64,000 nt of DNA from Pontibacter sp. HSC-36F09. GTDB lineage: Bacteria; Bacteroidota; Bacteroidia; Cytophagales; Hymenobacteraceae. Below the pieces are notes generated by a model that was not told where the DNA came from, ran no database searches, and saw only the letters and a program-made list of their open reading frames with translations. Shown here piece after piece: positions 7,690 through 23,716 of this stretch. The position numbers and the translations under genes are program-made. The DNA lies in the NCBI RefSeq assembly GCF_024171605.1, contig NZ_JALKAA010000002.1, forward strand, positions 496,001 to 560,000. Reading direction: 5' to 3'. Each line of letters opens with the position of its first letter. Position 1 is the first letter of the stretch.

Positions 7690-8090
7690 TGCTGTAGGTA
7701 TAGCAACCTGAATTGTTTCATGGCTTCGCCTGTGCGGCGGGCACTCACTTTTTTCCTTGATGAAAAGAAAGAGGGCCCCTACCCCCAGTAAGCAAAAAAA
7801 TCAAGACGCTTTTGAACTCGCTGACCGCTCAAACACAAAATCGTCGTTTTTGCACCTGGCCTGTGATCTGCTTCGTTGCTTCCGGGGCAAGTTACTCTTG
7901 CTATACCTGCCAGTGGCGTGTGCTACAAAGCTTATACCTGTAAAGTAGTAATTACAGGCTCCCCGCCTTAGACAAGAAGGGGTTAGGGGTGGTTGGATCC
8001 GGTATCTGTAGCAAAATCTACAGCGCTTATACTTGCGAACTGGTAACGGCGGAAAGTCCCCCTTAGAAGGGGGCAGGGGGATGTATAATT
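7690..8090. repeat. R5 composite repeat, copy 1, in the gap between the tRNA and the second PAP2 gene
   Basis: The gap 7491-8358 has no gene. About 400 bases of it match 58005-58430 in the same order: a GTAGGTATAGC start, CTTCGCCTGTGCGGCGGG, an AAAGTAAGCAAAAA/ATCAAGACGC block, GCTTCCGGGGCAAGTTACTC with TTGCTATACCTGCCAGTG, CTTATACCTGTAAA, then a REP-like hairpin ending in GGGGTGGTTGGA, and a second REP hairpin (8054-8083). A short 63-codon open frame over it (7757-7948) is covered by the repeat and is not a credible gene. The 17-base word at 7771-7787 interrupts this copy. Bases 8101-8160 hold AATCCTG-type repeats with another 17-base insert. Confidence 0.8.
7771..7787 (+). repeat. 17-base word GAGGGCCCCTACCCCCA, copy A
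   Basis: Exact copy lying inside the R5 repeat. Removing it restores the reading AAAGTAAGCAAAAA found in the uninterrupted R5 copy at 58078-58091, so it behaves as a clean insertion of 17 bases. Confidence 0.85.
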
Positions 8091-8114
8091 GTGCAAGAGA
8101 ATCCTGTCAATCCG

Positions 8115-8131
8115 TGGGGGTAGGGGCCCTC
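8115..8131 (-). repeat. 17-base word GAGGGCCCCTACCCCCA, copy B
   Basis: Exact copy on the minus strand. It sits within a series of AATCCTG repeats (ATCCTGTCAATCCG before it, TTTTAATCCTGTAAATCC after it); the repeat series reads on if the 17 bases are removed. Confidence 0.85.
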
Positions 8132-8358
8132 TTTTAATCCTGTAAATCCTGATTCAGACAAGCTGTACCTGCAGACCTCGTGGTGTGCAGAGTTCCTGCG
8201 TGTGTCTCAACCGACTGCTATAACTATACCTATGCCTCTTCAGCCGATGCCAATCTGTTAGACACTTGCAGGTCTGGAAGACACTGCGAGGTCTTTTCAA
8301 AAAGCTATACCTCACCTAACCACCCCTTCTTTCGTAAAGTGGGCAAAATGTATGCGAC

Positions 8359-9069
8359 ATGAAAAGCCTTACCAAGCGACTTCTGAAACTACTGGCGCTG
8401 CTTTCGGCTGAAGCAGCGCTGGTGGGCTTAGTTTTTCTTGCCAGTCTGCTTGTTTTCGGCTACATGACCCGCGAAGTTTTCATTCTGCAGGACACCGGTC
8501 TGGACGGTGCTCTGTTTCAGTTTGCGGCCTCGCACCGTTCCGAAAGCATGACCCGCCTGATGCGTTTTTTCTCTTTTTTCGCCTCCGCCGACTACCTGCT
8601 GGTTGCGCCCGCCCTCATCGTGCTGGTCATGGCCTGGTTTCATCACCTGCGCTGGTATGCCCTGAAGGTATTGGTGATCGCCTTTACCAGTACCATGCTC
8701 AATCAGTTGCTTAAGCGTTTATTCGAACGGCCCCGGCCCATCACAGCCATGTTGGAGCAGTCGGGGCTGAGCTTTCCCAGCGGACATGCCATGATCGGTG
8801 GCTCATTTTATGGGTTGCTTATTTACATTGTGTGGCGCGAAGTGAAAAGCCCTTTCTGGCGCTGGTTATGGGTAAGTCTGCTTTCCTTATTACTGCTGTT
8901 CATCGGCTACAGCCGCATTTACCTCAACGTGCATTACGCTACCGATGTACTGGCCGGTTATGCGATGGGTATCATTTGGCTACTTGTTGCTATCTGGCTG
9001 ATGAAGAAACTCGAGCGATGGTATTTTGGGAGGTTAGAAAGGTTGGAAGGGAGAAAGTTAGAAAGTTAA
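8359..9069 (+). CDS. PAP2-family membrane phosphatase (copy 2)
   Basis: A 236-residue paralogue of the protein at 6532-7239, with the same length and helix pattern. It has KRLFERPRP, SFPSGHAMIGGSFYG and YSRIYLNVHYATDVLAGYAMG, so the three phosphatase motifs and both catalytic histidines are intact. Like copy 1 it should remove phosphate from lipid phosphates or undecaprenyl pyrophosphate in the inner membrane. The two copies lie on the same strand with tRNA-Leu and a repeat field between them, so they look like an old tandem duplication later split by inserted DNA. Start ATG at 8359 follows a long untranslated stretch of repeats. Confidence 0.9.
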   Translation: MKSLTKRLLKLLALLSAEAALVGLVFLASLLVFGYMTREVFILQDTGLDGALFQFAASHRSESMTRLMRFFSFFASADYLLVAPALIVLVMAWFHHLRWYALKVLVIAFTSTMLNQLLKRLFERPRPITAMLEQSGLSFPSGHAMIGGSFYGLLIYIVWREVKSPFWRWLWVSLLSLLLLFIGYSRIYLNVHYATDVLAGYAMGIIWLLVAIWLMKKLERWYFGRLERLEGRKLES

Positions 9070-9544
9070 TGTTCTTTGTAGGGACAGGTCGCGCCTTCTT
9101 GTAGTCGATTTTAGAAATTAGAAGATGCTGATTCGAATATATTTATCTGAACCCGAATGAAGGCCTCAACCCTCAAATTTGCGGGCCTCCAAACCTGCGT
9201 ATGTCAGCACACGGGGATATGGACATCCCCAGCAGATGAGTGTAGGGGTCCTCGATATAGCTTCCGAACATCCATGTCCGGAAGAGCATCAGCAGCTTTT
9301 GGGACGGAAAATCCACAAGTACATAAACATTTCATCCTGGCGTTCTATGTAGGGACAGGTCGCGACCTGACCGAATCATACAACGGTATACCTGCACAAT
9401 CGTGCACTGGCAACAATTAACAATCAGCAATTTAACAATTCAACAATTTAACCATCTAACAATTAACAATTCAACATTTCCCTTTGTCTTCAGCATCAGG
9501 CAGCTTAATTTAGAGTGATCAACCGCCTCTCTAAAACAGAAACT
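9070..9544. repeat. Repeat field before the TPR protein gene (R3 and R4 hairpins)
   Basis: No gene is seen here. The stretch holds two R3 copies (TGTAGGGACAGGTCGCG at 9077-9093 and 9348-9369, the second with the palindrome CAGGTCGCGACCTG) and one R4 double hairpin (GGGGATATGGACATCCCC at 9213-9230, then CTTCCGAACATCC/ATGTCCGGAAG at 9261-9284). From 9405 to 9480 there is a run of AACAATT-type simple repeats. Two short open frames across it are shadows of these repeats. Confidence 0.7.
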
Positions 9545-12421
9545 ATGCCTCGCCTTCTGATTGTATGCCTTTGCTATACCTTGTTATTTCTTGCTATACC
9601 TGCCCTCGCCCAGCAGCCCGACCAAATTGTCGAGGTGAAAGCCAGATTGGAGAAAGAGCGACGTGCTTTACGGGAGACAGGTATAAGATCATTGCCTGAG
9701 AGAGCAGACCGCATGCTGGACCTGGGCATGTGGCAGGAGGCTGAGGCGCTACTCAAATCAGGCACTAGCTCCCCTGCGGTAAATTTGGCTAAAGCGCGTC
9801 TTGCTATGCTTCGACACGAATACCAGGTAGCGGAAGCGTTGGTGGGAGGGGTGCTGAAACAGGAACCCGCCAACAGAGCCGCTTTACTGTTGCAAGGCAA
9901 GCTGCAAATCCAGGCTTGGGAATTGAAAAATGCGCTGGCCACTGCCCAAAAACTGCTGCGTGTCAATCCAAAAGATGAAGAGGCCGCCCTGCTGGCAGGA
10001 CGCATCCTAATGCTGCAGAAAAAGTACAACGAGGCCCTGGCTCAGGCTTTGAAAGTACAGCGCTGGAATCCAAATAATGCCGCTGCCTACCTGCTGGAGT
10101 CGGATGTGCTGTTCTGGGACCAGAAGCCCGAAGAGGCCGAAAAGCCTCTTGTTAAAAGCCTAACGCTCGACCCATTCAATGCGGATGCTCGCTTCAATTA
10201 CGGCTATGCCATCTGGCGCCGGGTGGACGCCACACAACTCAACGCCATGGCCGCGCAGTGGGAGCTTGCGCTGGAACTCAATCCGCTGCACTATGTCACG
10301 CATTGGCACTGGGGCAACGGTCACACTAACCTCACCTATGCCGATTACGCCCAGCCGGAAGATAAAGCCGTTCGCAAAGCCCTGCAATCTGCTGATCAGC
10401 TGATCTCTCAAAACAAACTGCAGGAAGCCCTGGCTGAGATCCGAAAAGTGCAGCAGGCTTACCCGGCTTCGGTACTGCCTGACATGCTGCGCGGCTCTGC
10501 TTACTACATGGCTTTCGACCTGCCACGCCAGCCACGCCTCGATTCAGCGGAAGTTATTTTCCAGCGCATCCTTCGCAAGAAGCAACACTACGGCCCGGCG
10601 CACAATGCCCTGGCCGCTGTCATCAAGCAAAAGCAGCTCGTATACCTGGCCGCTTATGATTCACTTTCTCAGGTGATCCGGCAGACGGAGATCAATGACT
10701 CTGTCAACTTTGCACGCGTGTTTCCGGATGTAACGTACTATCCTGGGGAGACGGTGAAAAAGATGGTCTGGTCGCAGCTATACGCCAGCACGGTGTATTT
10801 CCCTTTTCTGTCGCGGCAGGGTGAAAAGTTTGTGATCCCGCCCCTGCACATCGACCTGGCCATTGCCATGAATTCTCCTTTCTTCCGACAGGCTACCACT
10901 TTTGACAATCGTCAGTGGATGGATATTAGGGGCGTAGGTAGCGGGGCAGCCGCCATTGAATACGTTATCCGGGGAGCCTACCTGGAGCGTAATGTGGTGC
11001 TGCATGAGTACGTACACTTGTTCCATGGGCGGGTATTTACGGACGCTGAAAACCGGACTGTGCGCCAGCTTTACCATAATGCTATGAAAGAAGGGCGCAC
11101 GCTCGACTATTATTCAGCCAACAACGAGCACGAGTACCTGGCCCAGACCTATCCGGCTTACTTCGAGCCCGTGAAAGTGCATCCGCTCAACCACAAGTCC
11201 ATTAACACCACCGCCGACCTGAAGGCAAAGGATCCCGCACTCTATACCTTCCTGGACGAGCTTGTGAAAAGGCAGCAAGCCTATCTGGCCGGCGACAAAC
11301 AGGCCATGGCCAGCAACTGGGCGCAGGTATACCTGAACCTGGCCGAATGCGAAACCCGGGCACAAAACTACCCCAAAGCGACCGCACTCCTTGACTCGGC
11401 CCTAATCTGGGACGCCAACTACCAGCCCGCCCTAATAGCCTATGCCGGTCTGAAGCAAAGACAACTGGCTTTCGACGAAGCGCAGCAGTGGTTGCAGCGC
11501 GCTCAAAAAGTGGACAAGGATTATGCACCGATCTATACTGCAGAGGCGGATTTGTTTGAAGCTCGCCGCAGAGCCGGACAATTGTCGGTCCGCCGGGCAG
11601 TACAGGAACAGCAGTCACGCTACGACCAGGCTCTTTTGCTAGAAGAGGACCTGCTGACCCGCGCCCGCATTAACCAGGCTTTCCGGGAAATGTATGCCTC
11701 CTACGGACGTCTTTCTGAGGCTATTGCAGTAGGAGAGCGCTATGTGCAGGAAGCCCCCACTATCTCTACCTACCTGCGTGACCGCCGCGACGAAGCACAG
11801 GCTTATACCAGCTGGCTGCGGGGTACTGCCGCGCCATCTGAAGAGGCGGAGCGCACCCTGGCGGCACTGGTTGCACGCAAGCCGCAACAGTACGAACTCC
11901 GCCAGCAGTATGCTGAGGTGCTGGCCACGCAGGGCAAGTATTCTGAGGCCATCGCCACGCTTGCAGAAGCGCAGCGCATCCTCACAGCGGCTGGAACGCC
12001 CCGCCCCGGCTACATGGTACGCATGGCCGCCTGGCAGTTGCATTTGGGAGATAAAGCTGCCGCTCAGCAATTACTGGAGCCAATCAGCAACGGTAAAATG
12101 CGTGCCCGCAGCGAAGCCACGCTGCTGGCCAGGGTATACGCCGGACTAGGTGATACGAATAAGGCACAAGAAGAACTCAAGAAGCAACCCGTACAACACA
12201 CGCCCGCCGAATTAGCTGATTTTCTGTTCGCCTCCGGCAAGGTATGGGAAGCGGAAAAGGATCAAAAACGCGCCCGAAAAGCCTACGAAGCCGCCCTTCG
12301 CGAGAACCCATACCTGTACGAAGCCCGCCAAAGCCTGGTCCGACTCCTGCACCAGGAAGGCAAAAGCGGCCAGGCCGAACGCCTGCTTACGGAAGGTATA
12401 GAATTGGGGTATAAGTTGTAA
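9545..12421 (+). CDS. Exported TPR-repeat protein with embedded HEXXH metallopeptidase-like domain
   Basis: A 958-residue protein if translation starts at the ATG at 9545, which puts a good signal peptide (MPRLLIVCLCYTLLF... to about residue 22) at the N-terminus; a GTG 30 bases upstream is in frame but less likely. Residues about 60-250 and 590-950 are helical TPR units (for example NPKDEEAALLAGRILMLQKKYNEA split over one unit). Between them, residues about 390-570 hold an HEYVH zinc motif (487-491) in VVLHEYVHLFHG and, some 37-39 residues on, NEHEYLAQTYPAYF whose glutamates (528/530) could be the third ligand, as in gluzincin peptidases. It probably acts in the periplasm or outer membrane. 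Substrate unknown; a degenerate, non-catalytic domain cannot be excluded. Confidence 0.8.
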   Translation: MPRLLIVCLCYTLLFLAIPALAQQPDQIVEVKARLEKERRALRETGIRSLPERADRMLDLGMWQEAEALLKSGTSSPAVNLAKARLAMLRHEYQVAEALVGGVLKQEPANRAALLLQGKLQIQAWELKNALATAQKLLRVNPKDEEAALLAGRILMLQKKYNEALAQALKVQRWNPNNAAAYLLESDVLFWDQKPEEAEKPLVKSLTLDPFNADARFNYGYAIWRRVDATQLNAMAAQWELALELNPLHYVTHWHWGNGHTNLTYADYAQPEDKAVRKALQSADQLISQNKLQEALAEIRKVQQAYPASVLPDMLRGSAYYMAFDLPRQPRLDSAEVIFQRILRKKQHYGPAHNALAAVIKQKQLVYLAAYDSLSQVIRQTEINDSVNFARVFPDVTYYPGETVKKMVWSQLYASTVYFPFLSRQGEKFVIPPLHIDLAIAMNSPFFRQATTFDNRQWMDIRGVGSGAAAIEYVIRGAYLERNVVLHEYVHLFHGRVFTDAENRTVRQLYHNAMKEGRTLDYYSANNEHEYLAQTYPAYFEPVKVHPLNHKSINTTADLKAKDPALYTFLDELVKRQQAYLAGDKQAMASNWAQVYLNLAECETRAQNYPKATALLDSALIWDANYQPALIAYAGLKQRQLAFDEAQQWLQRAQKVDKDYAPIYTAEADLFEARRRAGQLSVRRAVQEQQSRYDQALLLEEDLLTRARINQAFREMYASYGRLSEAIAVGERYVQEAPTISTYLRDRRDEAQAYTSWLRGTAAPSEEAERTLAALVARKPQQYELRQQYAEVLATQGKYSEAIATLAEAQRILTAAGTPRPGYMVRMAAWQLHLGDKAAAQQLLEPISNGKMRARSEATLLARVYAGLGDTNKAQEELKKQPVQHTPAELADFLFASGKVWEAEKDQKRARKAYEAALRENPYLYEARQSLVRLLHQEGKSGQAERLLTEGIELGYKL

Positions 12422-12478
12422 ATGCTGATTCAGACAATTTTCTTAACTTTCTACCTCCAAACATTCTAACCTTAACTC

Positions 12479-13039
12479 ATGAAAAATCTCTTCCGCCTCG
12501 CTTTCTTTCTTTTATTTATAGGCATGTTCAGTGCCTGCAACACGGGTACGTCAACTTCTGATCAGCAGATCGAGGAGATCGAGACTGCTACGGAAGTGAC
12601 TACGGTATACCTGGTTCGGCATGCCGAGAAGGATACTACCGATGCTTCCAATGAAGATCCGGAGTTGACAGAGGCAGGACATGCACGGGCGGAGGCCTTG
12701 CGTGCTTTGTTGGAAGGACAGGAGGTGGATGCTTTGTATGCGACGAAGTATATGCGCACCGGACAGACGCTTTATCCGCTGGCCAAGGAACGCAACTTAG
12801 AGGTGGTGCAGTATGAAGGGCACGACTTTGAAGGGCTGAAAGCACGTATCCTGCAGGAGCATCGTGGGCAGACGATCGTGGTAGCTGGACACTCGAATAC
12901 ACTGCTGCCGATCATCGAAGCATTTGGCGCGACAAAGCCTTTCGAAGAGATTGCAGACAGCCAGTACCGTTATTTGTTTAAACTGACTGTTCGTCCGGAC
13001 AGTACGGCAAGTGTGGAAGTGACTGAATTCGGGGACTAG
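12479..13039 (+). CDS. Histidine phosphatase family lipoprotein (SixA/phosphoglycerate mutase-like)
   Basis: A 186-residue lipoprotein: hydrophobic signal and lipobox FSAC with the lipidated cysteine at residue 20. The catalytic RHA motif is in VYLVRHAEKD (R47, H48), and VVAGHSNTLLP near residue 139 supplies the second histidine. Small proteins of this kind remove phosphate from phosphohistidine or small phosphoesters; being lipid-anchored, this one should work outside the cytoplasm. It follows the TPR gene by 57 bases on the same strand and converges on the RDD gene with only 3 bases between stops. Confidence 0.87.
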   Translation: MKNLFRLAFFLLFIGMFSACNTGTSTSDQQIEEIETATEVTTVYLVRHAEKDTTDASNEDPELTEAGHARAEALRALLEGQEVDALYATKYMRTGQTLYPLAKERNLEVVQYEGHDFEGLKARILQEHRGQTIVVAGHSNTLLPIIEAFGATKPFEEIADSQYRYLFKLTVRPDSTASVEVTEFGD

Positions 13040-13042
13040 CCT

Positions 13043-13474
13043 TTATGACAAGACCCTGGTCTTGCAGATGCGGTCGTGGAATAGGCGGGAATGGGAGGAA
13101 ACTCTTGTTCCTGTTAACGCCTGCATAATCAATACAAAAATGCTGATTGGCTTGATCAGGTAGCGGAGGCTGGCACAACGGAACGAAATGCGCTCACCGG
13201 AATGTCCCACAACGCGAAGCCCCACCAAATGTTTGCCAATAGAACCCTGCCAGGTAGCACTTTCGGTGCCGGCAAAGTATAGCCAGCCCATCAGTAAGTG
13301 CAGCAAGCGCTCTGATTTAAATAGAAATGCTTCTTCGTTGCTGCTGATAGTAAAGAACTCGATCAGTCCGATAATGGAAAGCAAAAAAAGTGCGTCCAGA
13401 CAAAAAGCAAGCACCCTCGTGCCCAACTGAGCCTCGAGTAGGTGCGGTTTCGCTTTCTGATAAGACAACTGCAT
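13043..13474 (-). CDS. RDD family membrane protein
   Basis: A 143-residue protein from the ATG at 13472-13474; a GTG ten codons upstream is an alternative. It has the RDD pattern: an arginine and aspartate in the first helix (LGTRVLAFCLDALFLLSIIG), a second helix in LLMGWLYFAG, and the GSIGKHLVGLRVV motif, followed by a third helix. RDD proteins are small inner-membrane proteins, some linked to cation or sodium transport; no specific role is known here. The TPR/phosphatase pair converges on it. Confidence 0.8.
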   Translation of the reverse strand: MQLSYQKAKPHLLEAQLGTRVLAFCLDALFLLSIIGLIEFFTISSNEEAFLFKSERLLHLLMGWLYFAGTESATWQGSIGKHLVGLRVVGHSGERISFRCASLRYLIKPISIFVLIMQALTGTRVSSHSRLFHDRICKTRVLS

Positions 13475-13571
13475 AGGTAATAAGGAGTAATAGCACCTTA
13501 ACACAAGATGCTATTACTCTATACTACATACCTGCAAGTGAGTTGCAGTACTTTATTAAAAATTGTAATTT

Positions 13572-14075
13572 TTAAAATAGATTCATTTGTATAGCCGCCC
13601 GAAGTGCTCCTTCATGGCGCAAAAGCCACTCTTTACGCCATAGGCCACCTGCGTATCCCGTCAGGCTTCCATCGCTGCCAATTACCCGATGGCAGGGCAC
13701 CACAATGCAGATCGGATTCCGTCCGTTGGCAGCGCCCACAGCACGTATGGCCTTCTCTCCCGAAACAGCCCTAGACACAGCCAGGTAGCTGGTGGTTTTG
13801 CCATGCGGTATACCCTGAAGCTCCTGCCATACCTGCTTTTGGAAAGTCGTACCTGCTGGCGCTAAATTCAATTCGAAATCCTGCCGCTTACCCGCAAAAT
13901 ATTCCTGCAATTGCTGCACGCAGGCGCTGAGGCAGGCCGGCAGATCACCTGTACTGTCATCTAGTGCTACCTCGTCACCACAGAATTTGACTTCCGTTAT
14001 ACCTAAATCTGTACCGCTGATCCGGAGCTGCCCCAAGGGAGATGGCATATAAGTAGTGTAGGTTCTGCTTTCCAT
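13572..14075 (-). CDS. ogt: Methylated-DNA--protein-cysteine methyltransferase
   Basis: A 167-residue protein from the ATG at 14073-14075; an upstream TTG in the same frame gives 8 more residues but is less likely. It carries the acceptor motif IVVPCHRVIG with the reactive cysteine at residue 128, plus the helix-turn-helix stretch GIPHGKTTSYLAVSRAV and GAANGRNP just before the active site. It takes the methyl group from O6-methylguanine or O4-methylthymine in a single-use reaction. The length matches Ogt/AGT without an AdaA domain. It is a single-gene unit in its neighbourhood. Confidence 0.93.
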   Translation of the reverse strand: MESRTYTTYMPSPLGQLRISGTDLGITEVKFCGDEVALDDSTGDLPACLSACVQQLQEYFAGKRQDFELNLAPAGTTFQKQVWQELQGIPHGKTTSYLAVSRAVSGEKAIRAVGAANGRNPICIVVPCHRVIGSDGSLTGYAGGLWRKEWLLRHEGALRAAIQMNLF

Positions 14076-14178
14076 AGTATGCGCCTGGCTATACCTCAAA
14101 TATAGGAATTCAAACCTACGTTCGCCATCAAAATTTGAGCATGTGCTGGCAAACGTGGGTGACAGGTATAGGATAGGC

Positions 14179-15186
14179 CTACTTGCCGGCTACTGCCGTT
14201 GGCGGAGTAAAGCGCTCTACCTTGTTGTTGTTCCCCTCTACTGACATCAGGTATTTGTAGATCGCTTTCAGGTCGGCTTCTTCCATACCTGCATACATGG
14301 CCCAGGGCATAATGGTGTTGAAATCGTCAGGGCCAAGCTTTTTGGCAGTTGCTTCAGGTCTTCCGTAGCTTTTAAAGCGCTGAACAAAGGTTTCCTCTGT
14401 CCAGTTGCCTATACCTGTTTGCCTGTCTGGTGTGATGTTGGCGGAGCGCAACACGGCGCCGTTCGGAAACTTAAACTCGAATCCACCGGCCAGGTATTTC
14501 CCTTCGACAGGCGCCCCTTTCTCTTGTGGCGTGTGGCATTCGGCGCAGGCCGCTATAGTGAGCAGGTACTTGCCGCGGATCAGTTCATCCTCCAGTGTGC
14601 GCTCGTCAGTAGGAGTAGGTTTCCCTGACGGGATCGTGCGCAGAATTAGATTCATTGGGAAATCTGGTTTGGAGGCCGGCACCTGGTGCCTGATCGGGTC
14701 GAGCGAACGAATGTAGGTGACAATGGCATAGGCATCATTGGTCGTCATGCTGGCATACGACTTATAAGGCATTACCGGGAAGAGTGGATCACCGTTGCGG
14801 CTAACCCCCGTCGTAAAGGCGCGGTATACCTCCCCATCGGTCCAAGTGCCTATACCTGTCTTAGTGTCAGATGTGATGTTACGGGCGTAAAAAATGCCGG
14901 GGAAGCCCATGGAGTGATCAAACACATCGCCTCCTTTACCTTCTGTACCAGGTAAAACCGGACCTGCAAAGCGGGAAAAGTCGCGTGTAGAGTGACAGTC
15001 GATGCATACCGCCACATGATTGGCCAGGTAAGCGCCACGCTCAATTAACTCCGGCGTCTTCTTGATGGTGATAGTAGGGGCTGCATCCACCTTAGGGAAG
15101 GTATAGCGTAGGTATACGACCCCTGCCGCCGCAATTACTACTAGCGCCACGAGCAGCATACCAATGATTCTAAGAGCTTTATTCAT
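14179..15186 (-). CDS. Membrane-anchored dihaem cytochrome c
   Basis: A 335-residue protein with an N-terminal membrane anchor (residues 5-27) and two haem-binding sites, CIDCH at 61-65 and CAECH at 214-218. Each half is a c-type cytochrome domain, with methionines in LFPVMPYKSYASM and NTIMPWAMYAGM placed to serve as the sixth iron ligands. It should face the periplasm and pass electrons to a dehydrogenase or oxidase; no partner gene is next to it. Promoter elements are not obvious. Such dihaem proteins resemble the cytochrome subunit of alcohol or gluconate dehydrogenases, but here it stands alone. Confidence 0.88.
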   Translation of the reverse strand: MNKALRIIGMLLVALVVIAAAGVVYLRYTFPKVDAAPTITIKKTPELIERGAYLANHVAVCIDCHSTRDFSRFAGPVLPGTEGKGGDVFDHSMGFPGIFYARNITSDTKTGIGTWTDGEVYRAFTTGVSRNGDPLFPVMPYKSYASMTTNDAYAIVTYIRSLDPIRHQVPASKPDFPMNLILRTIPSGKPTPTDERTLEDELIRGKYLLTIAACAECHTPQEKGAPVEGKYLAGGFEFKFPNGAVLRSANITPDRQTGIGNWTEETFVQRFKSYGRPEATAKKLGPDDFNTIMPWAMYAGMEEADLKAIYKYLMSVEGNNNKVERFTPPTAVAGK

Positions 15187-15352
15187 AACAGTGAGAGGTA
15201 TAAAGTGAGAGATTAGGTCTGCTGTAAAGTGTAATATTTAAAATAAAAATTTTCATAATCAAGCGCATTTTTACCTCGAGTTCTATATTTTAGTGCAGCT
15301 TCATTTTCAGGATGTGAAGAGTAGGTATAACTGGGTATAAATATGAACTATG

Positions 15353-16130: not shown

Positions 16131-16178
16131 ACCATTTTACAATTTAACTATCCAACCATTCAACAATTTATAAATCAC

Positions 16179-16838
16179 ATGAAAAAAACCGCTATTCTGG
16201 CATCACTTGCCGCCGCGCTGATGCTTTCTGCCTTTACCGGCACCTCACGCACTGATCTAAATGCAACTGAAGTGGCCGCTCCTGCCAAGGCACGCACTTT
16301 TGCTGTGGAGACTGCTGCCAGCGAAGTAAACTGGAACGCCAAAAAAGTGACTGGTGAGCACTTCGGCAAAATAACTATGAAAAGTGGCCAGCTACAGGTG
16401 GATAAAAACCGCGTGACCGGCGGCACCTTCGAGTTTGATATGAGCTCGATCACGGTAGAGGACATCAAGGATGCCGGCATGAATGGCAAGTTGGTTGGTC
16501 ACCTGAAGTCAGATGACTTCTTCGGTGTAGAAAAACACCCAGGCGCTACTTTCGTGATCACGGAAGCTACTCCAATCACAAAGGCCACCGCTGGCCAGCC
16601 AAACTACAACGTAAAAGGCAACCTGACCATCAAAGGCATCACCAACCCCGTGAGCTTCCCGGCTACTATCACCGTGAAAGACGGTGTAGCCACTGCCAAA
16701 GCCGATGTGACTGTAGACCGCACCAAATATGACATCCGCTACCGCTCCAGCAACTTCTTCGAGAACCTGGGTGACAAAGCAATCTACGACGAGTTTACAG
16801 TAAGCTTTAACGTGAAGGCGAAGCAGACGAATAGCTAA
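16179..16838 (+). CDS. YceI family protein, copy 1 (secreted, no lipobox cysteine)
   Basis: A 219-residue protein with an N-terminal signal (MKKTAILASLAAALMLS) and a YceI lipocalin-like beta-barrel (residues about 40-215) with VNWNAKKVTGEHFGKI, VGHLKSDDFFGVEKHPGATF, GNLTIKGITNPVSFPATI and KADVTVDRTKYDIRYRS. YceI barrels bind long isoprenoid chains in the periplasm; the ligand here is unknown. It is a close paralogue of the protein at 17209-17871. At the position where that copy has the lipidated cysteine (residue 19), this copy has phenylalanine, so it should be released by signal peptidase I, not lipid-anchored. It follows the MarR gene by 48 bases. Confidence 0.9.
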   Translation: MKKTAILASLAAALMLSAFTGTSRTDLNATEVAAPAKARTFAVETAASEVNWNAKKVTGEHFGKITMKSGQLQVDKNRVTGGTFEFDMSSITVEDIKDAGMNGKLVGHLKSDDFFGVEKHPGATFVITEATPITKATAGQPNYNVKGNLTIKGITNPVSFPATITVKDGVATAKADVTVDRTKYDIRYRSSNFFENLGDKAIYDEFTVSFNVKAKQTNS

Positions 16839-16862
16839 GGTATAGCTGGAATAACTCCACTT

Positions 16863-16896
16863 AAGCCCTCCCCTAAAAATGGGGGAGGGCTTTTTT
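16863..16896 (+). terminator. Terminator after yceI copy 1
   Basis: Perfect stem AAGCCCTCCCC/GGGGAGGGCTT with a short A-rich loop and a run of six T residues, 24 bases after the stop. An almost identical terminator follows yceI copy 2, as expected for a duplicated unit. Confidence 0.9.
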
Positions 16897-16923
16897 GTTT
16901 CTAATAGGTATAGGTCCTTATTT

Positions 16924-17003
16924 GTCATCTCGACAATAGGAGAGATCTGGATGATTGTAAGGCCTGTACTATATCTCAGATTTCTCCTAAAGGTCGAAAT
17001 GAC
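16924..17003. repeat. R2 family element, copy 2 (80 bp)
   Basis: Ends GTCATCTCGACAATAGGAGA and its partner TCTCCTAAAGGTCGAAATGAC form imperfect terminal inverted repeats. It lies just downstream of the yceI copy 1 terminator. The remainder of the gap to the next promoter (17004-17134) holds an R3-like remnant at 17058-17080 and no gene. Confidence 0.8.
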
Positions 17004-17134
17004 ATCTAGTGGACATGCTGGCATTGCTGGGATGTCGGAAATCACCCTTGCACGATTTGGACAGGTTGCGACTTATCCTAACAGGGCTGCTAATTCTTTT
17101 ATCCATACAACAATTCAAAATTTTCTGAACTATG

Positions 17135-17166
17135 TTTGTACAATAAATGTATATACATTAGATTTG
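17135..17166 (+). promoter_or_regulatory. Promoter with perfect 14-bp palindromic operator, yceI copy 2
   Basis: TTTG at 17135-17138 and TAgaTTTG at 17159-17166 are 20 bases apart. Between them lies AATGTATATACATT (17146-17159), a perfect palindrome that touches the downstream box. The site is positioned for a repressor to block RNA polymerase. The MarR protein encoded at 15675-16130 is the obvious candidate, as a related site precedes its own gene. Confidence 0.7.
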
Positions 17167-17208
17167 CAAACAGAATTAGAAAACTATAATTATCTAAATT
17201 AGAATTAC

Positions 17209-17871
17209 ATGAAAAAGACAGCAATCCTTGCTTCTATGGCCGCAGCGCTTTTCTTTACCGCTTGCACCGACAGTAACACTGCAACTGAAAACACAACTGC
17301 CGTTACAACTGAAGCCACTGTTGCAACAGAAGGTGAAGCGTATGCCGTAGATACGGCTGCCAGCGAATTGACCTGGAACGGTAAAAAAGTAGGTGGTGAG
17401 CACTCTGGTAACATCAGCCTGCAAGGTGGCGAACTGTTAGTAACTGACGGCCAGTTAGTAGGTGGCGAGTTTACCATCGATATGGCCTCTATCACCAACA
17501 CCGACTTAACAGATGCTAAATACAATGCTGACTTAGTAGGTCACCTGAAGTCTGACGATTTCTTTGGCGTAGAGCAGCACCCAACGGCTAACTTCAAGAT
17601 CAACAGCATCAGCCCGATTGCCGACGCTGCTGCCGGTCAGCCAAACTATAACGTAGAAGGCGACTTAACCATCAAGGGCAAAACCAATCCTGTTAGCTTC
17701 CCAGCGACAGTTACTGTTGAAAACGGCACAGCTACTGCTAAAGCTGACGTAATCATTGACCGCGCCAAGTATGACGTTCGTTACGGCTCTAAGAGCTTCT
17801 TCGATGACCTGGGCGACAAAGTGATCGACGATAACTTCACCGTGAGCCTGGATATTACTGCCAAGCAGTAA
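17209..17871 (+). CDS. YceI family lipoprotein, copy 2
   Basis: A 220-residue lipoprotein: MKKTAILASM start, lipobox FTAC with cysteine 19, a threonine/glutamate-rich linker (residues 20-45), then a complete YceI barrel (LTWNGKKVGGEHSGNI, VGHLKSDDFFGVEQHPTANF, GDLTIKGKTNPVSFPAT, YDVRYGSKSFFDDLGDKVI). It probably binds a hydrophobic ligand while anchored to a membrane. It has its own promoter with a palindromic operator. Gene, terminator and following R2 element are all duplicated from or to copy 1. Confidence 0.92.
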   Translation: MKKTAILASMAAALFFTACTDSNTATENTTAVTTEATVATEGEAYAVDTAASELTWNGKKVGGEHSGNISLQGGELLVTDGQLVGGEFTIDMASITNTDLTDAKYNADLVGHLKSDDFFGVEQHPTANFKINSISPIADAAAGQPNYNVEGDLTIKGKTNPVSFPATVTVENGTATAKADVIIDRAKYDVRYGSKSFFDDLGDKVIDDNFTVSLDITAKQ

Positions 17872-17906
17872 TTCGAACTACCTCTAAGGAAGAAGACCCT
17901 ACCCGA

Positions 17907-17938
17907 GCCCTCCCCTGAAAACAGGGGAGGGCTTTTTT
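17907..17938 (+). terminator. Terminator after yceI copy 2
   Basis: Perfect 11-bp stem GCCCTCCCCTG/CAGGGGAGGGC, loop AAAA, six T residues. Confidence 0.92.
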
Positions 17939-17965
17939 GTTTCTAGCAGGTATAGGTCCTTATTT

Positions 17966-18064
17966 GTCATCTCGACAATAGGAGAGATCTGAATTATTCC
18001 GAAGCCTGTACTACGTTTCAGATTTCTCACTAGTAGAGGGCCCCTACCCCCAGTTCGAAATGAC
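17966..18064. repeat. R2 family element, copy 3, interrupted by the 17-base word
   Basis: Same ends as copy 2 (GTCATCTCGACAATAGGAGA ... TTCGAAATGAC) and the same position after a yceI terminator. It is longer than copy 2 because GAGGGCCCCTACCCCCA sits within its right arm. The rest of the gap to 18193 holds an R3 remnant (AGGTCTCGACCTGTCCC near 18124-18140) and no gene. Confidence 0.82.
18036..18052 (+). repeat. 17-base word GAGGGCCCCTACCCCCA, copy C
   Basis: Exact copy inside the right inverted repeat of R2 copy 3. The three other R2 elements have no such bases at this position. Confidence 0.88.
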
Positions 18065-18193
18065 AAAAAAGTACTTTCTGCCGGTGTTAGGATTCAGGCA
18101 GATTACTTGTGCACGTTTCGGATAGGTCTCGACCTGTCCCTACAGATATTTAGAAAATGATTAACTTGCCTGTACATACAACGCCACCACCTT

Positions 18194-18961
18194 ATGCTGT
18201 ACAAATCTATCTATACCTTACTATTTATACTGCTAATCAGCATCACCTCTTGCCAGACTGAAAAGCAGCCGGACGCGCAGCAGATTGTGGATAAGGCGAT
18301 TGAAGCTCATGGAGGGGAGCGTTTCCTGAAGAGTGCGATCAGTTTTGAGTTCCGGGACAGGCAATACCGGGCTTTGCGTGATGGTGGGGTATTTGTGTAT
18401 AGCCGTACTTTTACGGATTCTACGGGGCAGCATGTGCGGGATGTGTGGCGAAACAGCGGCTTTACCCGCACCATCAATGACGAGGAGGTAGAACTTCCTG
18501 AAGAAAAGCAGAAAGCCTATACCGCTTCTGTTAACTCTGTTATCTACTTTGCCCTACTGCCTTATGCCCTTAACGACGAGGCTGTGCAGAAAGAATACCT
18601 GGGCGAAACTACCATCAAAGGAGAGCCCTACCACAAGGTACGTGTGACTTTCGCCCAGGAAGGCGGCGGCGAAGGCTACCAAGATGTCTACATCTACTGG
18701 TTCCACCAGCAGCGCCACACTATGGATTACCTGGCTTACTCTTTCCAGGAAAATGACGGTGGTACCCGCTTCCGCGAGGCCTTTAATCCCCGCACCGTCG
18801 GCGACATCTTATTTCAGGATTATAACAATTATACCTTAAAGGAGGATACCCCACTGGAAGCCTATGATCAGGCCTTTGAGGCAGGTAAAATGGAAAAGGT
18901 GTCGGAAGTTGTGTTGGAAGATATTGAAGTGAAGGAGTTAGAAAGCCATAGGGATATGTAG
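18194..18961 (+). CDS. Lipoprotein of unknown function (DUF6503-like)
   Basis: A 255-residue lipoprotein with lipobox ITSC and cysteine 20. The opening DAQQIVDKAIEAHGG is a pattern common in Bacteroidota lipoproteins of the DUF6503 type, and the body is rich in beta-strands (FEFRDRQYRALRDGGVFVY, GEPYHKVRVTFAQEGGGEGY) in the manner of LolA/outer-membrane lipoprotein-sorting folds. Role unknown; it may bind a lipid or a small molecule. The family name is from memory. It has no operon partner: a repeat field lies on each side. Confidence 0.75.
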   Translation: MLYKSIYTLLFILLISITSCQTEKQPDAQQIVDKAIEAHGGERFLKSAISFEFRDRQYRALRDGGVFVYSRTFTDSTGQHVRDVWRNSGFTRTINDEEVELPEEKQKAYTASVNSVIYFALLPYALNDEAVQKEYLGETTIKGEPYHKVRVTFAQEGGGEGYQDVYIYWFHQQRHTMDYLAYSFQENDGGTRFREAFNPRTVGDILFQDYNNYTLKEDTPLEAYDQAFEAGKMEKVSEVVLEDIEVKELESHRDM

Positions 18962-19139
18962 CGACCTTTCCGAATCGTGAGGTTTAAATACCTGCTATTG
19001 TGCGCCATCCCCCTTCAAAGGGGGATGGCGCACAATGCGTACTTCAATAATGATTCATACATATTGAGTGTCTCCCTTTGAACGGGGCAAGGAGATGACA
19101 ATCGTGTAAAAGTCCCCTCTTGGGAGGGGCAGGAGTGGG
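18962..19139. repeat. REP-like hairpin cluster, including a 38-base palindrome
   Basis: Bases 18998-19035 form an 18-bp perfect stem (TTGTGCGCCATCCCCCTT and its complement) with only two bases between. Two further R1-type hairpins follow (around 19070-19103 and 19111-19140), each a CCCCTC/GAGGGG-like stem with a tail GGCAGGAG(A/T). They lie between convergent genes and may end both transcripts; no T run is seen. Confidence 0.75.
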
Positions 19140-20039
19140 TTAATAATCAACAATCATCAGCAACACTTTCCACGCCTCCTGCACCTGATGATCATCCAGC
19201 AGCTTTTTGCCTAGTTTTTCCAATTCTGTACGCAGTTGTGCTTTGTCATGCCTGTGCTTACTAAAGGTATAGCTGACTAGCGGATCAGATTTGAAGGCTT
19301 CTACTTCCTCCGCAGAAGGAATAACTTCTGTATTGCCCAGGCGGGCCAGATGATTGCCGGTCAGGATACTGCTGTGGCGGATGTACTCTGGTAACTGATC
19401 TACCCCGACGCTCTTGTTTCGCACTGGCTTGGGCAACTCGAATATACAGTCGCCATTGGCCCTGAGGTAATAGTCGCCACCCATACGCGCGACAGCATCC
19501 AGTTTATAAGGATCGATCTTGCCATCCTCGTTCAGGATGTTTTCATTCACATGAATCAGCAGTACCTCACAGATCACCAGGTTACCGGCGCCGCCTTCCG
19601 GTCCGAGGCTGATCACCTCGTTCACCCGGCACTCCAGGGCTACAGGTGCTTCTTTCACCCGCGGGGCACGCACCATTACGGAAGGCTCTGGCGTCAGACC
19701 AGATTTGATAAACTCGTTAATGCCCTTGTCATACTCCGTACTTGCCAGCGACATCTGCTCCACCATGTCGTAGTTGCTAATGTTGATGACCACTTCCCTG
19801 GTAGTCTCTACATTCTCCAGGGTATGCTTTCCGGTATTGTCGCGCACCCGGCGGGCAGGGGAGAAGACCACGATGGGCGGTTTGGCGCTGAAAACGTTGA
19901 AGAAGCTAAACGGGCTCAGGTTCACATTCCCTTCCTCATCCACCGTACTGGCAAAGGCGATCGGCCGCGGCGCAATGGCACCCAACAATAAAGCATGCAC
20001 TTCTGCCGTTTTGGTTTCTTTCGGGTTTATGGTTTTCAT
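19140..20039 (-). CDS. Flavin reductase family protein
   Basis: A 299-residue protein from the ATG at 20037-20039; the open frame extends 40 codons further upstream through repeat DNA with no family similarity. It opens with TAEVHALLLGAIAPRPIAFASTVDEEGNVNLSPFSFFN, split here only as a description of the FMN-binding split-barrel motif, followed by PPIVVFSPARR and REVVINISNYDMVEQM. Proteins of this type bind FMN and act as NAD(P)H:flavin oxidoreductases or as partners of monooxygenases. No partner is adjacent. It converges on the lipoprotein gene. Confidence 0.87.
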   Translation of the reverse strand: MKTINPKETKTAEVHALLLGAIAPRPIAFASTVDEEGNVNLSPFSFFNVFSAKPPIVVFSPARRVRDNTGKHTLENVETTREVVINISNYDMVEQMSLASTEYDKGINEFIKSGLTPEPSVMVRAPRVKEAPVALECRVNEVISLGPEGGAGNLVICEVLLIHVNENILNEDGKIDPYKLDAVARMGGDYYLRANGDCIFELPKPVRNKSVGVDQLPEYIRHSSILTGNHLARLGNTEVIPSAEEVEAFKSDPLVSYTFSKHRHDKAQLRTELEKLGKKLLDDHQVQEAWKVLLMIVDY

Positions 20040-20125
20040 GGTATAGCTGGTTTGTGTTGGAGGGTTGCAAGTTACGAAATGTATGAATGTGGAAAGTAAG
20101 GTTGTAAAACACGATGAGACTAAAC

Positions 20126-20196
20126 TTGCCCCTGCCCCTCCAAGGAGGGGGATTTGCACAAATAATATTCCCTTCCTTGGAGGGGCGGGGGTGGGT
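20126..20196. repeat. Inverted pair of R1 REP hairpins
   Basis: CCCCTGCCCCTCCAAGGAGG (20130-20149) and CCTTCCTTGGAGGGGCGGGG (20171-20190) are near mirror images around a short AT-rich centre. They sit in the gap between the flavin reductase gene and the polysaccharide locus. Confidence 0.7.
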
Positions 20197-20266
20197 TAAT
20201 CATTCACAAGTACTCCCCATCTTTAAATGAGAAGGTATAAGAAGCTAGAATTAACCACATATAATA

Positions 20267-20297
20267 AATGTTTTCAAAAACATTTTACGTAATTTTG
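20267..20297 (+). promoter_or_regulatory. Candidate promoter and operator at the head of the polysaccharide locus
   Basis: TAatTTTG at 20290-20297 fits the Bacteroidota downstream box. Overlapping the upstream half is AATGTTTT-CA-AAAACATT (20267-20284), an inverted repeat with 8-base arms, suited to a regulator. A second small hairpin, GCATT-AGCA-AATGC (20355-20368), lies just before the first start codon. No clear TTG sits at the ideal distance, so the promoter call is moderate. Confidence 0.5.
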
Positions 20298-20380
20298 CTT
20301 TCTAGCGACAATGTGTCTACGTTGCTGAGACTTGGTTGTGACCTTTAGCTTGTTGCATTAGCAAATGCTATTTACCCCAT

Positions 20381-21169
20381 ATGAAAATTAAACTAGTACT
20401 CTTCCTGAGTCTTCTCTTCTTGGCCTCCTGCAGTTCCCTGCGTACCCGTAACATCGTCTATTTTAGCGACCTGGAGCAAAAGCCACTTCTTACAGAATCA
20501 ATAGAAATAAAGCGTCTGACCATCAAGCCCGGTGACCTATTAGCTATTGAAGTACTTACTCCAAACATGGAAACGAACATGCTATTTAATAGAGGCATTA
20601 TGATGGAGGAAGGTGCCAGTGGTGGTGGACAGATGATGCGGCAACAGGGCAACCAAAACGAAGGCTATTTAGTAGATACTCGTGGCACTATTGATTTTCC
20701 TGTATTAGGTACGATGCCTGTCAACGGGATGACAACGGAACAACTTCGGGACTCAATCCTGTTACGGGTAAAAGAATATGTGCAGGATCCAATCGTTAAA
20801 GTAAGATTGCAAAATTTCAGGTTCACCATGATGGGCGAGACAGGACCTGCTGTAGTGGAAGTTCCTGCCGATAATGAGGATGTGAACCTACTAGAAGGAC
20901 TTGCGATGGCAGGCGGCATTTCAATTTACGGGAAGATGGAAAATGTACTAGTGATCAGAGAACAAAATGGTGTGCGTACCATGGCTCGCTTAAATCTCAA
21001 TAGCAAGGAAACGCTTAACTCTCCCTACTTTTATTTGCAGCAGAATGACATTGTGTATGTAGAGCCAGATAAGGCCAAGGTGACAGGTACCAGCTTTATC
21101 CGGCGTAACTGGGGCTTCGCTGCAGGCATTGTGTCTTCTGCCTGGGTGCTTTACCAATTGTTAAAATAA
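20381..21169 (+). CDS. Polysaccharide export lipoprotein (Wza/BexD-like)
   Basis: A 262-residue lipoprotein (lipobox LASC, cysteine 17) with the Poly_export domain: RLTIKPGDLLAIEVLTP at about 46-62, then GYLVDTRGTIDFPVLGTMPVNGMT, and an SLBB-like segment (VEVPADNEDVNLLEGLAMAGG) further on. It ends in a hydrophobic helix (GFAAGIVSSAWVLYQLL). It should form the outer-membrane channel for the polysaccharide built by the rest of this locus. It is the first gene of a co-directional run and is followed after 21 bases by the Wzc-like gene, its usual partner. Confidence 0.92.
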   Translation: MKIKLVLFLSLLFLASCSSLRTRNIVYFSDLEQKPLLTESIEIKRLTIKPGDLLAIEVLTPNMETNMLFNRGIMMEEGASGGGQMMRQQGNQNEGYLVDTRGTIDFPVLGTMPVNGMTTEQLRDSILLRVKEYVQDPIVKVRLQNFRFTMMGETGPAVVEVPADNEDVNLLEGLAMAGGISIYGKMENVLVIREQNGVRTMARLNLNSKETLNSPYFYLQQNDIVYVEPDKAKVTGTSFIRRNWGFAAGIVSSAWVLYQLLK

Positions 21170-21190
21170 TATAACACTTCCTTCTATATA

Positions 21191-23548
21191 ATGTCCGAAC
21201 TCGATTTTCAGGAAGATAACAGTGAATCTTTAGATATAAAAGGCCTGGTCATGCGGTATCTCCGCTATTGGTACCTCTTTGTGATCGGTGCTGCCCTTGC
21301 TCTTACGGCGGCACACCTTTACCTGCGTTATTCTACCCCAGTCTATAGCGTAAAAGCTACTATTCTTATCAAAGATGAAAGTGGCGCTGATCTGGCCAAT
21401 AGTGGGGTATTCGGTGACATGGCTCTGCTAAAATCAAATAAGTCCTTTTCGAATGAGGTGTTAGTTATTAAGTCGAAAGGCTTGATGGAACGTGTGCTGA
21501 CGGAATTGGGCATGGAGGTGTCTTATTTTGGTGAAGGGCGCATCAAATCACCGGAGTTGTACGGAGGGCGGAGCCCAATTAAGGCGGTTATTGCACAACT
21601 AGACTCGGCTGGACTAGGGAAAAACTTTATTGTAGAGGTAGAAGACAATAACTCCTTCAGTATTTATGAGGGCGAAAATAAAGTCTCTACTCACAAGTTT
21701 GGTGAGCAGATAAAGAAGCATTATGGTACTTTTACTATTGTGGCAGATTCGGATATCACCAATGATAGGGGTCGTCGTGTGTTAGTGCGTTTTAATAACC
21801 TCGGTAAGTTGGCGAATAGCTATAGTAAACAGCTTGGGGTGAAAAGCGTGAACGAGTACGCCACGGTCATGGAGTTAAGTCTGACTGATCCGGTACCTGC
21901 CAAAGGCAAAGACATTCTGAATAAGCTGATTGAAGTATACAATCGTGAAACAATCAACGAAAAAAACCTAGCCGTTTCTAAGACTATTCAATTTATTGAT
22001 GACCGTTTGGTATACCTGACACGAGAGCTGACAGATGTAGAAAAGGATGTAGAGCGGTATTTGCAAGATAATAGATTGATAGACCCTGCTGCCAGTGGAG
22101 GAATGTATCAAAGTACTGCACACACCTATAACCAACAGATAACAGAGAATGAAATTAAACTCGAGATATTAAAGTCAGTTGAATCATACCTCCAACAAGA
22201 AGAAAATAAATATGAACTGGTACCCACCAGCCTTGATATTGCTGATCCAACGCTTGGTGGTTTAATTGTTAACTTCAATGAGCTACAAAATCAGCGACGA
22301 CGCTTGGGCCGTTCTGTTACTGAAAACAATCCGGTTCTCCGTAATGTGAATGAGCAGCTAGAAATTTTGCGCCTGAATATTCTGGAAAATATTCGGAATA
22401 TCAGAGAGGGACTATTAGTCGTTCGCCGTAATTTACAGGCCAGCGCCCGTCAGTTTGAGTCACAGGTGCGGCAGGTACCTTCTATGCAACGAGAACTGAC
22501 TGACATCAGCCGACAACAGGGCATTAAGGAGGGATTATATTTATATCTTCTGCAAAAACGCGAAGAGGCCGCCTTATCACAGGCTATTACGCCATCCAAT
22601 TCCCGTGTTCTTGATCCGGCAGCGGCTGGTGGAAGCCCCATTGAACCTCAGGCTACCAACATATACCTTATGTCTTTGTTAGCTGGTCTCGCTATACCGT
22701 TCGCAGGTATATTCCTGCGCGATATGCTCAACGATACTATACAGGAGGTGCGTGAAGTTGAAAAGGCTACATCTACACCTATCCTTGGCGAAATCGGGCA
22801 TAATGATTCGGGTCAAATGATGGTAGTCAGGCAGGAGAGTCGTAGCTCGAGTGCTGAGCTTTTCCGCTTATTGCGTGCAAATATGCAATTTGCTGCAGGA
22901 GGCAAAGAAAATAGGGTGATTCTGGTAACTTCCAGCATGAGCGGAGAAGGTAAAACCTTTTTTAGTTTGAACCTGGCTGCCAGTTTGGGGATGACAGGTA
23001 AAAAAGTAGTTGTGCTGGGTTTTGACTTACGGAAGCCTAAGCTGACACAAGGAGTGAATTTGCCAAACAATATTGGTATCACCAATTACCTGATCTCAGA
23101 CAGTGTTCAGATTGAGGATATGATTCAGTTTGCACCCGATATGCCAGATTTGGCAATCATCGGCTCAGGACCTATTCCTCCGAATCCTTCTGAACTGATG
23201 TTATTGCCGAAGATTGGAATGCTCATCGAAGAACTCAAGTCTGCCTTTGACTATATCATCCTGGACTCCTCGCCTGTCGGGCAGGTGGCGGATACCCTGG
23301 CATTAGCCCCTTATATTGACTCTAGCTTATATATAGTACGCTATAATTACACGCATAAAAAACAGCTGCAAATCATTGATGACCTATATAAGTCACGCAA
23401 GCTCAAGCATCCGATGATTGTGCTCAATGATGCTAAAAAGAGCAATAGCTATGGTTATTCCTATGGTTACGGCTATGGGTATGGTAACTATTATGAAGAA
23501 GAGTCGAGGGGTTTGGGTAGTAAGTTGAGGAAGTTGGTGAAGGGGTAA
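21191..23548 (+). CDS. Polysaccharide co-polymerase and tyrosine autokinase (Wzc-like)
   Basis: A 785-residue inner-membrane protein. Residues 12-50 hold the first Wzz helix, followed by a long periplasmic domain with coiled-coil stretches (about 260-470) and a second helix near 498-515. The cytoplasmic BY-kinase domain has Walker A SGEGKT (584-589, lysine 588), Walker A' VVVLGFDLRKP and Walker B YIILDSSP. The C-terminal tail is a tyrosine ladder with eight tyrosines between 754 and 768, the sites of autophosphorylation that control chain length. It works with the export lipoprotein upstream and the Wzx/Wzy proteins further on. A repeat field separates it from the sugar genes. Confidence 0.94.
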   Translation: MSELDFQEDNSESLDIKGLVMRYLRYWYLFVIGAALALTAAHLYLRYSTPVYSVKATILIKDESGADLANSGVFGDMALLKSNKSFSNEVLVIKSKGLMERVLTELGMEVSYFGEGRIKSPELYGGRSPIKAVIAQLDSAGLGKNFIVEVEDNNSFSIYEGENKVSTHKFGEQIKKHYGTFTIVADSDITNDRGRRVLVRFNNLGKLANSYSKQLGVKSVNEYATVMELSLTDPVPAKGKDILNKLIEVYNRETINEKNLAVSKTIQFIDDRLVYLTRELTDVEKDVERYLQDNRLIDPAASGGMYQSTAHTYNQQITENEIKLEILKSVESYLQQEENKYELVPTSLDIADPTLGGLIVNFNELQNQRRRLGRSVTENNPVLRNVNEQLEILRLNILENIRNIREGLLVVRRNLQASARQFESQVRQVPSMQRELTDISRQQGIKEGLYLYLLQKREEAALSQAITPSNSRVLDPAAAGGSPIEPQATNIYLMSLLAGLAIPFAGIFLRDMLNDTIQEVREVEKATSTPILGEIGHNDSGQMMVVRQESRSSSAELFRLLRANMQFAAGGKENRVILVTSSMSGEGKTFFSLNLAASLGMTGKKVVVLGFDLRKPKLTQGVNLPNNIGITNYLISDSVQIEDMIQFAPDMPDLAIIGSGPIPPNPSELMLLPKIGMLIEELKSAFDYIILDSSPVGQVADTLALAPYIDSSLYIVRYNYTHKKQLQIIDDLYKSRKLKHPMIVLNDAKKSNSYGYSYGYGYGYGNYYEEESRGLGSKLRKLVKG

Positions 23549-23618
23549 ACCCCACCCCAGCCCTCCCCTAAAAACAGGGGAGGGAGCCTGTGAACGATTA
23601 CACCTTTGCCCTTCTCAA

Positions 23619-23635
23619 GAGGGCCCCTACCCCCA
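23619..23635 (+). repeat. 17-base word GAGGGCCCCTACCCCCA, copy D
   Basis: Exact copy, followed by AAACAGGGGAGGG; the left flank is CCTTTGCCCTTCTCAA. Confidence 0.82.
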
Positions 23636-23699
23636 AAACAGGGGAGGGGGATTTTAAAAAATAATTAAATAGAAAGTGTTCTCAAGCCCCCTCCTGTTT

Positions 23700-23716
23700 T
23701 GGGGGTAGGGGCCCTC
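23700..23716 (-). repeat. 17-base word GAGGGCCCCTACCCCCA, copy E
   Basis: Exact copy on the minus strand, placed in the loop of a CCCCCTCCT/AGGAGGGGG hairpin. Read on the minus strand its right flank (AAACAGGAGG) nearly matches that of copy D. Confidence 0.82.

Follow-up and report, generated by a model that had tools for sequence, protein, structure and literature searches.

MITEs are non-autonomous dispersed elements with terminal inverted repeats and a target duplication. Closer to the unit described here are the SDRs of cyanobacteria, in Nostoc and relatives, which are said to be non-coding dispersed repeats of 21-27 nt. Some of them reportedly share a hairpin, with compensating changes for SDR4-6. 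They are also said to insert precisely in other repeats, such as tandem repeats and minitransposons, with HIP1 as a target, and to be confined to a coherent group. Some SDR families reportedly nest in themselves, and an RNA intermediate is said to have been suggested.

Small dispersed repeats of similar size are reported in cyanobacteria in the available excerpts of papers citing Elhai 2008. Other short structured mobile elements found in such excerpts are the mitochondrial GC clusters, the double-hairpin elements and further repetitive hairpin-forming elements. The same partial sources give a putative AG target duplication for the GC clusters of yeast mitochondria, and an RNA route was suggested there for the Allomyces mitochondrial elements because flanking duplications are lacking. 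The REP/REPIN sequences with their RAYT transposase are described, in the portions at hand, as short, extragenic, hairpin-forming and present in many copies.

A short unit inserted into repeats

The window, i.e. the whole stretch of 64,000 nucleotides that was analysed, covers positions 496001-560000 of contig C2 in a genome (G000) of 4.43 Mb and 19 contigs. A 17-mer, GAGGGCCCCTACCCCCA, is present in it in five exact copies, at the places and on the strands that the sequence-only reading had given, see Table 1. With up to 3 mismatches allowed, the window contains 6 matches to the 17-mer, compared with a mean of 0.15 in 100 shuffles. The additional match, at 9237-9253, looks like a degenerate copy of the same unit.

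Table 1. Copies of the unit and their host repeats, in window coordinates.
Feature	Position	Strand	Parts or source	Setting
Copy 1	7767..7787	+	tail GAAA; 16-nt core 7771-7786; target A 7787	site A of repeat R5
Copy 2	8115..8134	-	core 8116-8131; target base 8115; tail TTT 8132-8134	AATCCTG tandem series
Apparent degenerate copy	9237..9259	-	3 mismatches to the 17-mer; tail-like GATATA	between stem-loops
Copy 3	18035..18052	+	core 18036-18051	repeat R2
Copy 4	23615..23635	+	core 23619-23634, preceded by TCAA	hairpin of the CCCTCCCC-AAAACAGGGG type
Copy 5	23700..23722	-	core 23701-23716; tail GATAAA 23717-23722	CCCCCTCC-AAAACAGGAGGGGG hairpin
Host repeat R5, carrier of copy 1	7708..8000 (approximate)	+	repeat-family search of the window	
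Second R5, uninterrupted	~58021-58300		repeat-family search of the window	
Host repeat R2, carrier of copy 3	17906..18072 (approximate)	+	relatives at 16864 and 49606	

The window shares several more structured repeat families among its intergenic stretches, R2-type repeats and paired stem-loops (5149-5310, 9070-9400, 16864-17004, 49606-49694 and 55836-56130). The window also contains a tandem duplication at 16301-17944, where two adjoining gene-sized stretches, 1042 bp apart, are 70-90% alike in pieces, downstream repeats included. An Rfam search of the window at gathering thresholds returned tRNA alone and no known structured RNA for the unit.

The ends of the insert were defined from exact pairs of empty and occupied sites with 11+11 identical flanking bases. 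These show that the unit consists of a 16-nt core, GAGGGCCCCTACCCCC, and a variable tail at the 5' end of the core, and that most of these pairs differ by a net 18-22 nt. The unit had first been described as 17 clean bases; the insertion does leave the host repeat otherwise intact, and it is the length that has to be revised. In the exact pairs the CCCCC end of the insert is fixed and followed by the target base, and the opposite end is the variable tail (TTTATC, TTGTC, TTCTC, ATC, GAAA, ATA or ACA). No target duplication is visible at these pairs, in agreement with the initial description. Read on the opposite strand, the order is a pyrimidine, GGGGGTAGGGGCCCTC and then a variable A/T-rich tail (GATAAA, GACAA, GAT, TTTC and others).

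The last A of the 17-mer is usually the target base and not a part of the unit. Across the genus, the base after the exact core is A in 888 of 1074 cores, i.e. the pyrimidine on the opposite strand is T in 888. The idea that the target base is A without exception was rejected, as 186 cores (summed from the table) are followed by another base, which is G in nearly all among the matches listed. In the own genome the core is followed by A in 43 copies and by C in one. The core adjoins many unrelated sequences, as is seen from the flanking bases of the 43 copies in the own genome and of 183 across all loci examined.

Distribution in the genome, the genus and the family

Counting the word genome-wide and in related strains had been proposed as a check. 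The count gives 43 exact 17-mers in the own genome, where about 0.0005 are expected genome-wide under uniform base composition, and 888 in the 50 genomes of the genus, of which 47 carry between 1 and 64 copies and the others 0; a reversed-pattern control gives 0 in both. The own copies divide into 28 forward and 15 reverse; insertion in both orientations is supported.

In the family search, the 17-mer was found in 51 of 204 genomes: 47 of the 50 Pontibacter, 3 of 8 in a second genus, g2 (4 copies), and 1 of 120 in genus g4; it was not found in the 26 genomes of the other three genera. Outside Pontibacter and g2 it is thus present in 1 of 146 genomes from four genera. All four g2 copies are preceded by TTGACACAAAGTAA, as in site A of R5, so the association with this site reaches a second genus. 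The flanks of the single g4 copy are unlike the others. A scan of named genomes returned at least 117 stretches; among the matches listed, 76 of 80 have Pontibacter in the title and the remaining 4 are scattered MAGs. By our own estimate, around 30 exact 17-mer matches would occur at random in 257 Gb, and the g4 copy and the four non-Pontibacter records among the 80 matches listed were taken as chance. Carriage by phage was considered and dropped, as the one exact IMG/VR match has flanks unlike those of the Pontibacter hosts and was also taken as chance. The unit is found almost only in Pontibacter.

The sequence-only reading had listed an assembly artefact among its possible explanations. It is excluded by the exact copies in 47 of 50 genomes, some of them assembled as a single contig, and degraded copies shared at orthologous places also speak against it; the probability that we would still assign to an artefact is negligible.

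The copies had been described as intergenic, and none of the 43 own copies overlaps an ORF of at least 150 aa (6 of 43 do for at least 100 aa and 16 of 43 for at least 60 aa). Intergenic placement as a strict rule was rejected, since 5 of the 126 copies in named loci from other genomes lie within an ORF of at least 150 aa. Copies in the own genome, G029, G020 and the named loci are found in convergent over divergent gene gaps by 57 to 12, a ratio in which the host repeats are uncontrolled. This bias, together with the exactness of the core in 888 copies, would be expected if the unit were a binding site or a processing signal, useful in intergenic repeats and kept by selection. However, the copy number ranges from 0 to 64 between species, there is no orientation rule, and the host repeats may themselves explain the convergent bias, which makes a selected signal very improbable. 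The unit is probably of no use to the cell.

Empty and occupied sites in relatives

Eleven insertions, two of them degenerate, were compared with the nearest relatives (G048, G012, G019 and G040), which are 79-92% identical over the query used. For six insertions, one relative or more has the host or flank but lacks the insert; two are shared and three are uninformative. Copy 1 has its R5 host present and empty in both G012 and G048. At copy 3 there is an exact 18-nt gap in G012, and the G019 sequence lacks the unit too. A gap of about 21 nt in the G012 alignment corresponds to the degenerate copy at 9237. Further away on the contig, both insertions of the R5 copy at C2:494664 are missing in G019, and the insertion in the R2 copy at C2:639485 is missing in G048, the G012 and G019 regions being rearranged. 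The copies at C2:663166 and C2:663212 are common to the own genome and G048, in degraded form.

Uninterrupted relatives within the window had been taken to show that removal of the 17 bases restores the host at 7771 and 18036, and empty orthologous hosts exist for both. For the copies at 8115, 23619 and 23700, the support is that the host reads on when the insert is taken out; the relatives add no informative site because the orthologous region itself differs (for 23619 and 23700, the host was not found at the orthologous place in G012). The comparison of occupied with empty orthologous sites, with a host empty in a relative for 6 of 11 insertions, also contradicts the possibility that orthologous sites always carry the word as part of an older repeat.

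Host sites

The 43 own copies give 42 distinct contexts (two share their 40-nt flanks, or one is without them), and a script assigned all 42 to host-site classes, which agrees with the observation that each copy lies within another repeat. Ten classes were obtained: R5 site A (15 contexts), R5 site B (4), a fused R5 A/B (4, L041 among them being a plain site B by eye), R5 site A reversed (1), R5 site C (1), CCTCCCC-AAAACAGGGG hairpins (7), CCCCTCC-GGAGGGG hairpins (3), positions between two stem-loops (3), the AATCCTG tandem (2) and R2 (2). Host kinds thus include both AATCCTG tandem series and larger palindromic repeats. In three of the fused cases of the own genome (L001, L003 and L009), the left part of R5 is from site A and the right part from site B, with one unit joining them. 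The fused class apparently arose by a deletion between two units at neighbouring sites about 46 bp apart.

Additional hosts are seen in other species; in G002, for instance, a GC-rich element (L255) carries three exact cores together with a single sister word in 247 bp. L255 and L259 of this genome are a GC-rich MITE-like repeat in which as many as four units, belonging to two word types, lie in about 250 bp. A unit nested in itself was seen in 0 cases among the loci examined.

Ten host-site classes in one genome indicate several independent insertion events. This bears on the alternative that a few old insertions spread as their host repeats were duplicated and underwent gene conversion with one another, and that the unit is not mobile now. 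Insert length and tail are often the same within a class, GAAA occurring 8 times and ATC 7 times among the 28 inserts listed for R5 site A, and the degraded copies shared with G048 at C2:663166 and C2:663212 also suit old insertions. However, the ten own classes and the further hosts in other species would need many separate insertions, and several different tails exist at R5 site A. We therefore find this alternative improbable as a full account.

The sequence-only reading had stressed hairpins as the place of insertion, for which we find modest support. The predicted hairpin loop holds 36% of 149 junctions (with a tail that could not be stripped in 23 of the 149 contexts) compared with 24% of shifted positions. 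In the own genome, the values are 34% of 35 junctions and 20% of shifted positions. As a rule, "always in hairpin loops" was rejected, at 36% of the 149 junctions.

Specificity of the insert and sister words

A general screen for insertions gave tandem repeats for the most part. Because it was run on loci selected for the 17-mer, scans for any insert were added as a less biased test. These covered 50 genomes and two host sites, R5 site C and AATCCTG, and accepted inserts of 12-40 nt. At R5 site C there are 56 inserts: 4 are the 17-mer or differ from it by one base (all in G007), 51 are a second word, and 1 is a host duplication. The second word is TTGACAGGGGGACCCCTTCACCCCC and its variants, with a net insert of 24-25 nt; it sits at R5 site C in loci L142, L067, L073 and L099. 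Its 19-nt core is found in 5 of 50 genomes (G041 with 32, G031 with 12, G019 with 11, G048 with 9 and G046 with 1). The AATCCTG site has 52 inserts, of which 34 are the 17-mer or a third word, TTTATATAGGGCCCCTACCCCA and its variants, and 18 are host duplications. The second and third words are thus sister words of the 17-mer that enter host sites of the same kinds. No foreign insert outside this word family was found at either site within 12-40 nt. The occupancy of R5 in syntenic stretches offers too few sites for comparison.

The two scans are relevant to template switching. A nascent strand, stalled in a repeat and ending in T, would pair with the A after CCCCC in a copy elsewhere, copy the unit and return at a short microhomology, with no dedicated machinery. 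Several observations fit: the fixed junction adjoins a purine on the core strand (the A that follows most exact cores), many other junctions read ...CTTT or ...AAA and are potential return points, and the hosts are mostly hairpins or tandem repeats. At L080, the stretch that is CTCCTTTTCTCGAG in relatives reads inverted to the left of the core, a small local inversion such as template switching between small inverted repeats would produce. However, template switching leaves unexplained why the same word is always copied, as no other foreign insert was seen at the two host sites, and why one end is so exact. We consider it unlikely.

A possible hairpin

The opposite strand of all three words, the 17-mer, the second and the third, could form a 5-bp stem. 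Among 34 distinct variants (2 of 36 were dropped for an ambiguous frame), drawn from loci that were partly chosen for the 17-mer, 93.5% of the pair cells are standard, compared with 84.8% when shuffled, and the covariation score is 0.324, compared with 0.171. Neither value is reached by any of 500 shuffles, and both drop when the pairing partner is slid. The terminal pair of the stem is GC in 21 variants, UA in 11 and GU in 2. The UA rows all come from one sister word and perhaps represent one event, and pairs changed on both sides number 1, no more than in shuffles. Folding energies do not stand out for 4 of 5 strands, and the best z is -1.95. A hairpin on the opposite strand is plausible, not proven.

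Candidate machinery and mechanism

Reverse transcriptase (PF00078) has no match in the own genome or in the genomes with 53, 55 and 64 copies. It is matched in 24 of 50 genomes, with a Spearman correlation to copy number of -0.18 (p 0.20), and a link between the two was rejected. Without a PF00078 match in these copy-rich genomes, it is at present difficult to argue for a reverse-transcribed RNA. A link to a Y1/RAYT transposase was also rejected: PF01797 (Y1_Tnp) correlates with copy number at a Spearman of 0.07 (p 0.65), and 7 of 50 genomes that hold 1 to 53 copies, including ones with 38, 40 and 53, have no match to it.

Orientation does not follow the replichores (23 of 55 and 24 of 47), with origin and terminus inferred from 20 sampled 20-kb stretches per genome. 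The sense ratios of 8:12, 10:2 (p 0.04) and 26:20 give no bias overall. From these two null results there is no sign of a lagging-strand or a transcript-bound step.

The fixed end, the variable A-rich end, the lack of a duplication and the small hairpin would together suit a copied short RNA. We suggest that the moving form could be a short structured single strand, RNA or ssDNA, with a hairpin and a tail, which would be copied and pasted by a cellular activity. The intermediate molecule would be expected to begin with GGGGGUAGGGGCCCUC and to have an A-rich tail. The unit probably also spreads in part by gene conversion where a host repeat has several copies. As the main route we favour a short structured RNA or ssDNA that is pasted in, with template switching and gene conversion as the main rivals.

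The reading as a whole, in which the 17-mer represents the conserved portion of a tiny non-coding mobile repeat, SDR-like in behaviour and moved as a pasted structured strand, has in our judgement about an even chance of being correct against all alternatives together. A more detailed version is put forward tentatively and may well be wrong. It would have a structured unit of 16 conserved nt and a variable tail, actively mobile and one of the smallest such elements known. A cellular activity so far undescribed, needing neither reverse transcriptase nor Y1 transposase, would paste this unit into repeats next to a pyrimidine in the form of a short hairpin RNA or ssDNA; the sister words would suggest that shape, not letters, is recognised.

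Comparison with known mobile elements

At about 19 to 22 bases, the unit would be one of the smallest mobile DNA elements so far known. Should units of about 20 nt be able to move, not all mobile DNA would fit the usual scheme of two ends, a transposase and a cargo, and some of the short-repeat clutter in bacterial genomes may move as well. In Pontibacter, the 50 sequenced species with 0 to 64 exact copies each and the clean orthologous empty sites make the movement of such units directly testable.

The sequence-only reading knew of no described element of this kind. This holds for Pontibacter and Bacteroidetes, in which no earlier description was found in the open-licence literature. It does not hold more widely, as small elements of such a kind, the cyanobacterial SDRs and the mitochondrial hairpins, are described in the excerpts available.

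The unit was considered and rejected as a MITE, a REPIN, a GC cluster and a reverse-transcriptase-linked element, as it fails the defining tests of each. Like MITEs, it is dispersed and non-autonomous, but it is far shorter and has neither terminal inverted repeats nor, at the exact pairs, a target duplication. It shares with REP/REPIN sequences, as far as the partial sources describe them, that it is short, extragenic, capable of a hairpin and multicopy; unlike them it is shorter still, often lies within other repeats and is present in the 7 genomes without PF01797. The mitochondrial elements in the excerpts are likewise short, structured and mobile. However, they belong to organelle genomes and are longer, and the AG target-site duplication given there for GC clusters is missing from the exact pairs in Pontibacter.

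The best reading is that the Pontibacter unit works like the cyanobacterial SDRs, although no sequence relation to them was seen and it belongs to a different phylum. Both are non-coding, insert precisely in other repeats and are limited to one related group. The net insert of 18-22 nt, or 24-25 nt for the second word, overlaps with the 21-27 nt reported for SDRs and is slightly shorter. The Pontibacter unit differs in its target, a purine after the core where SDRs are said to use HIP1, and in that self-nesting does not occur among the loci examined. Its recent mobility, by which it again resembles the SDRs, can be read from the empty and occupied sites of its relatives.
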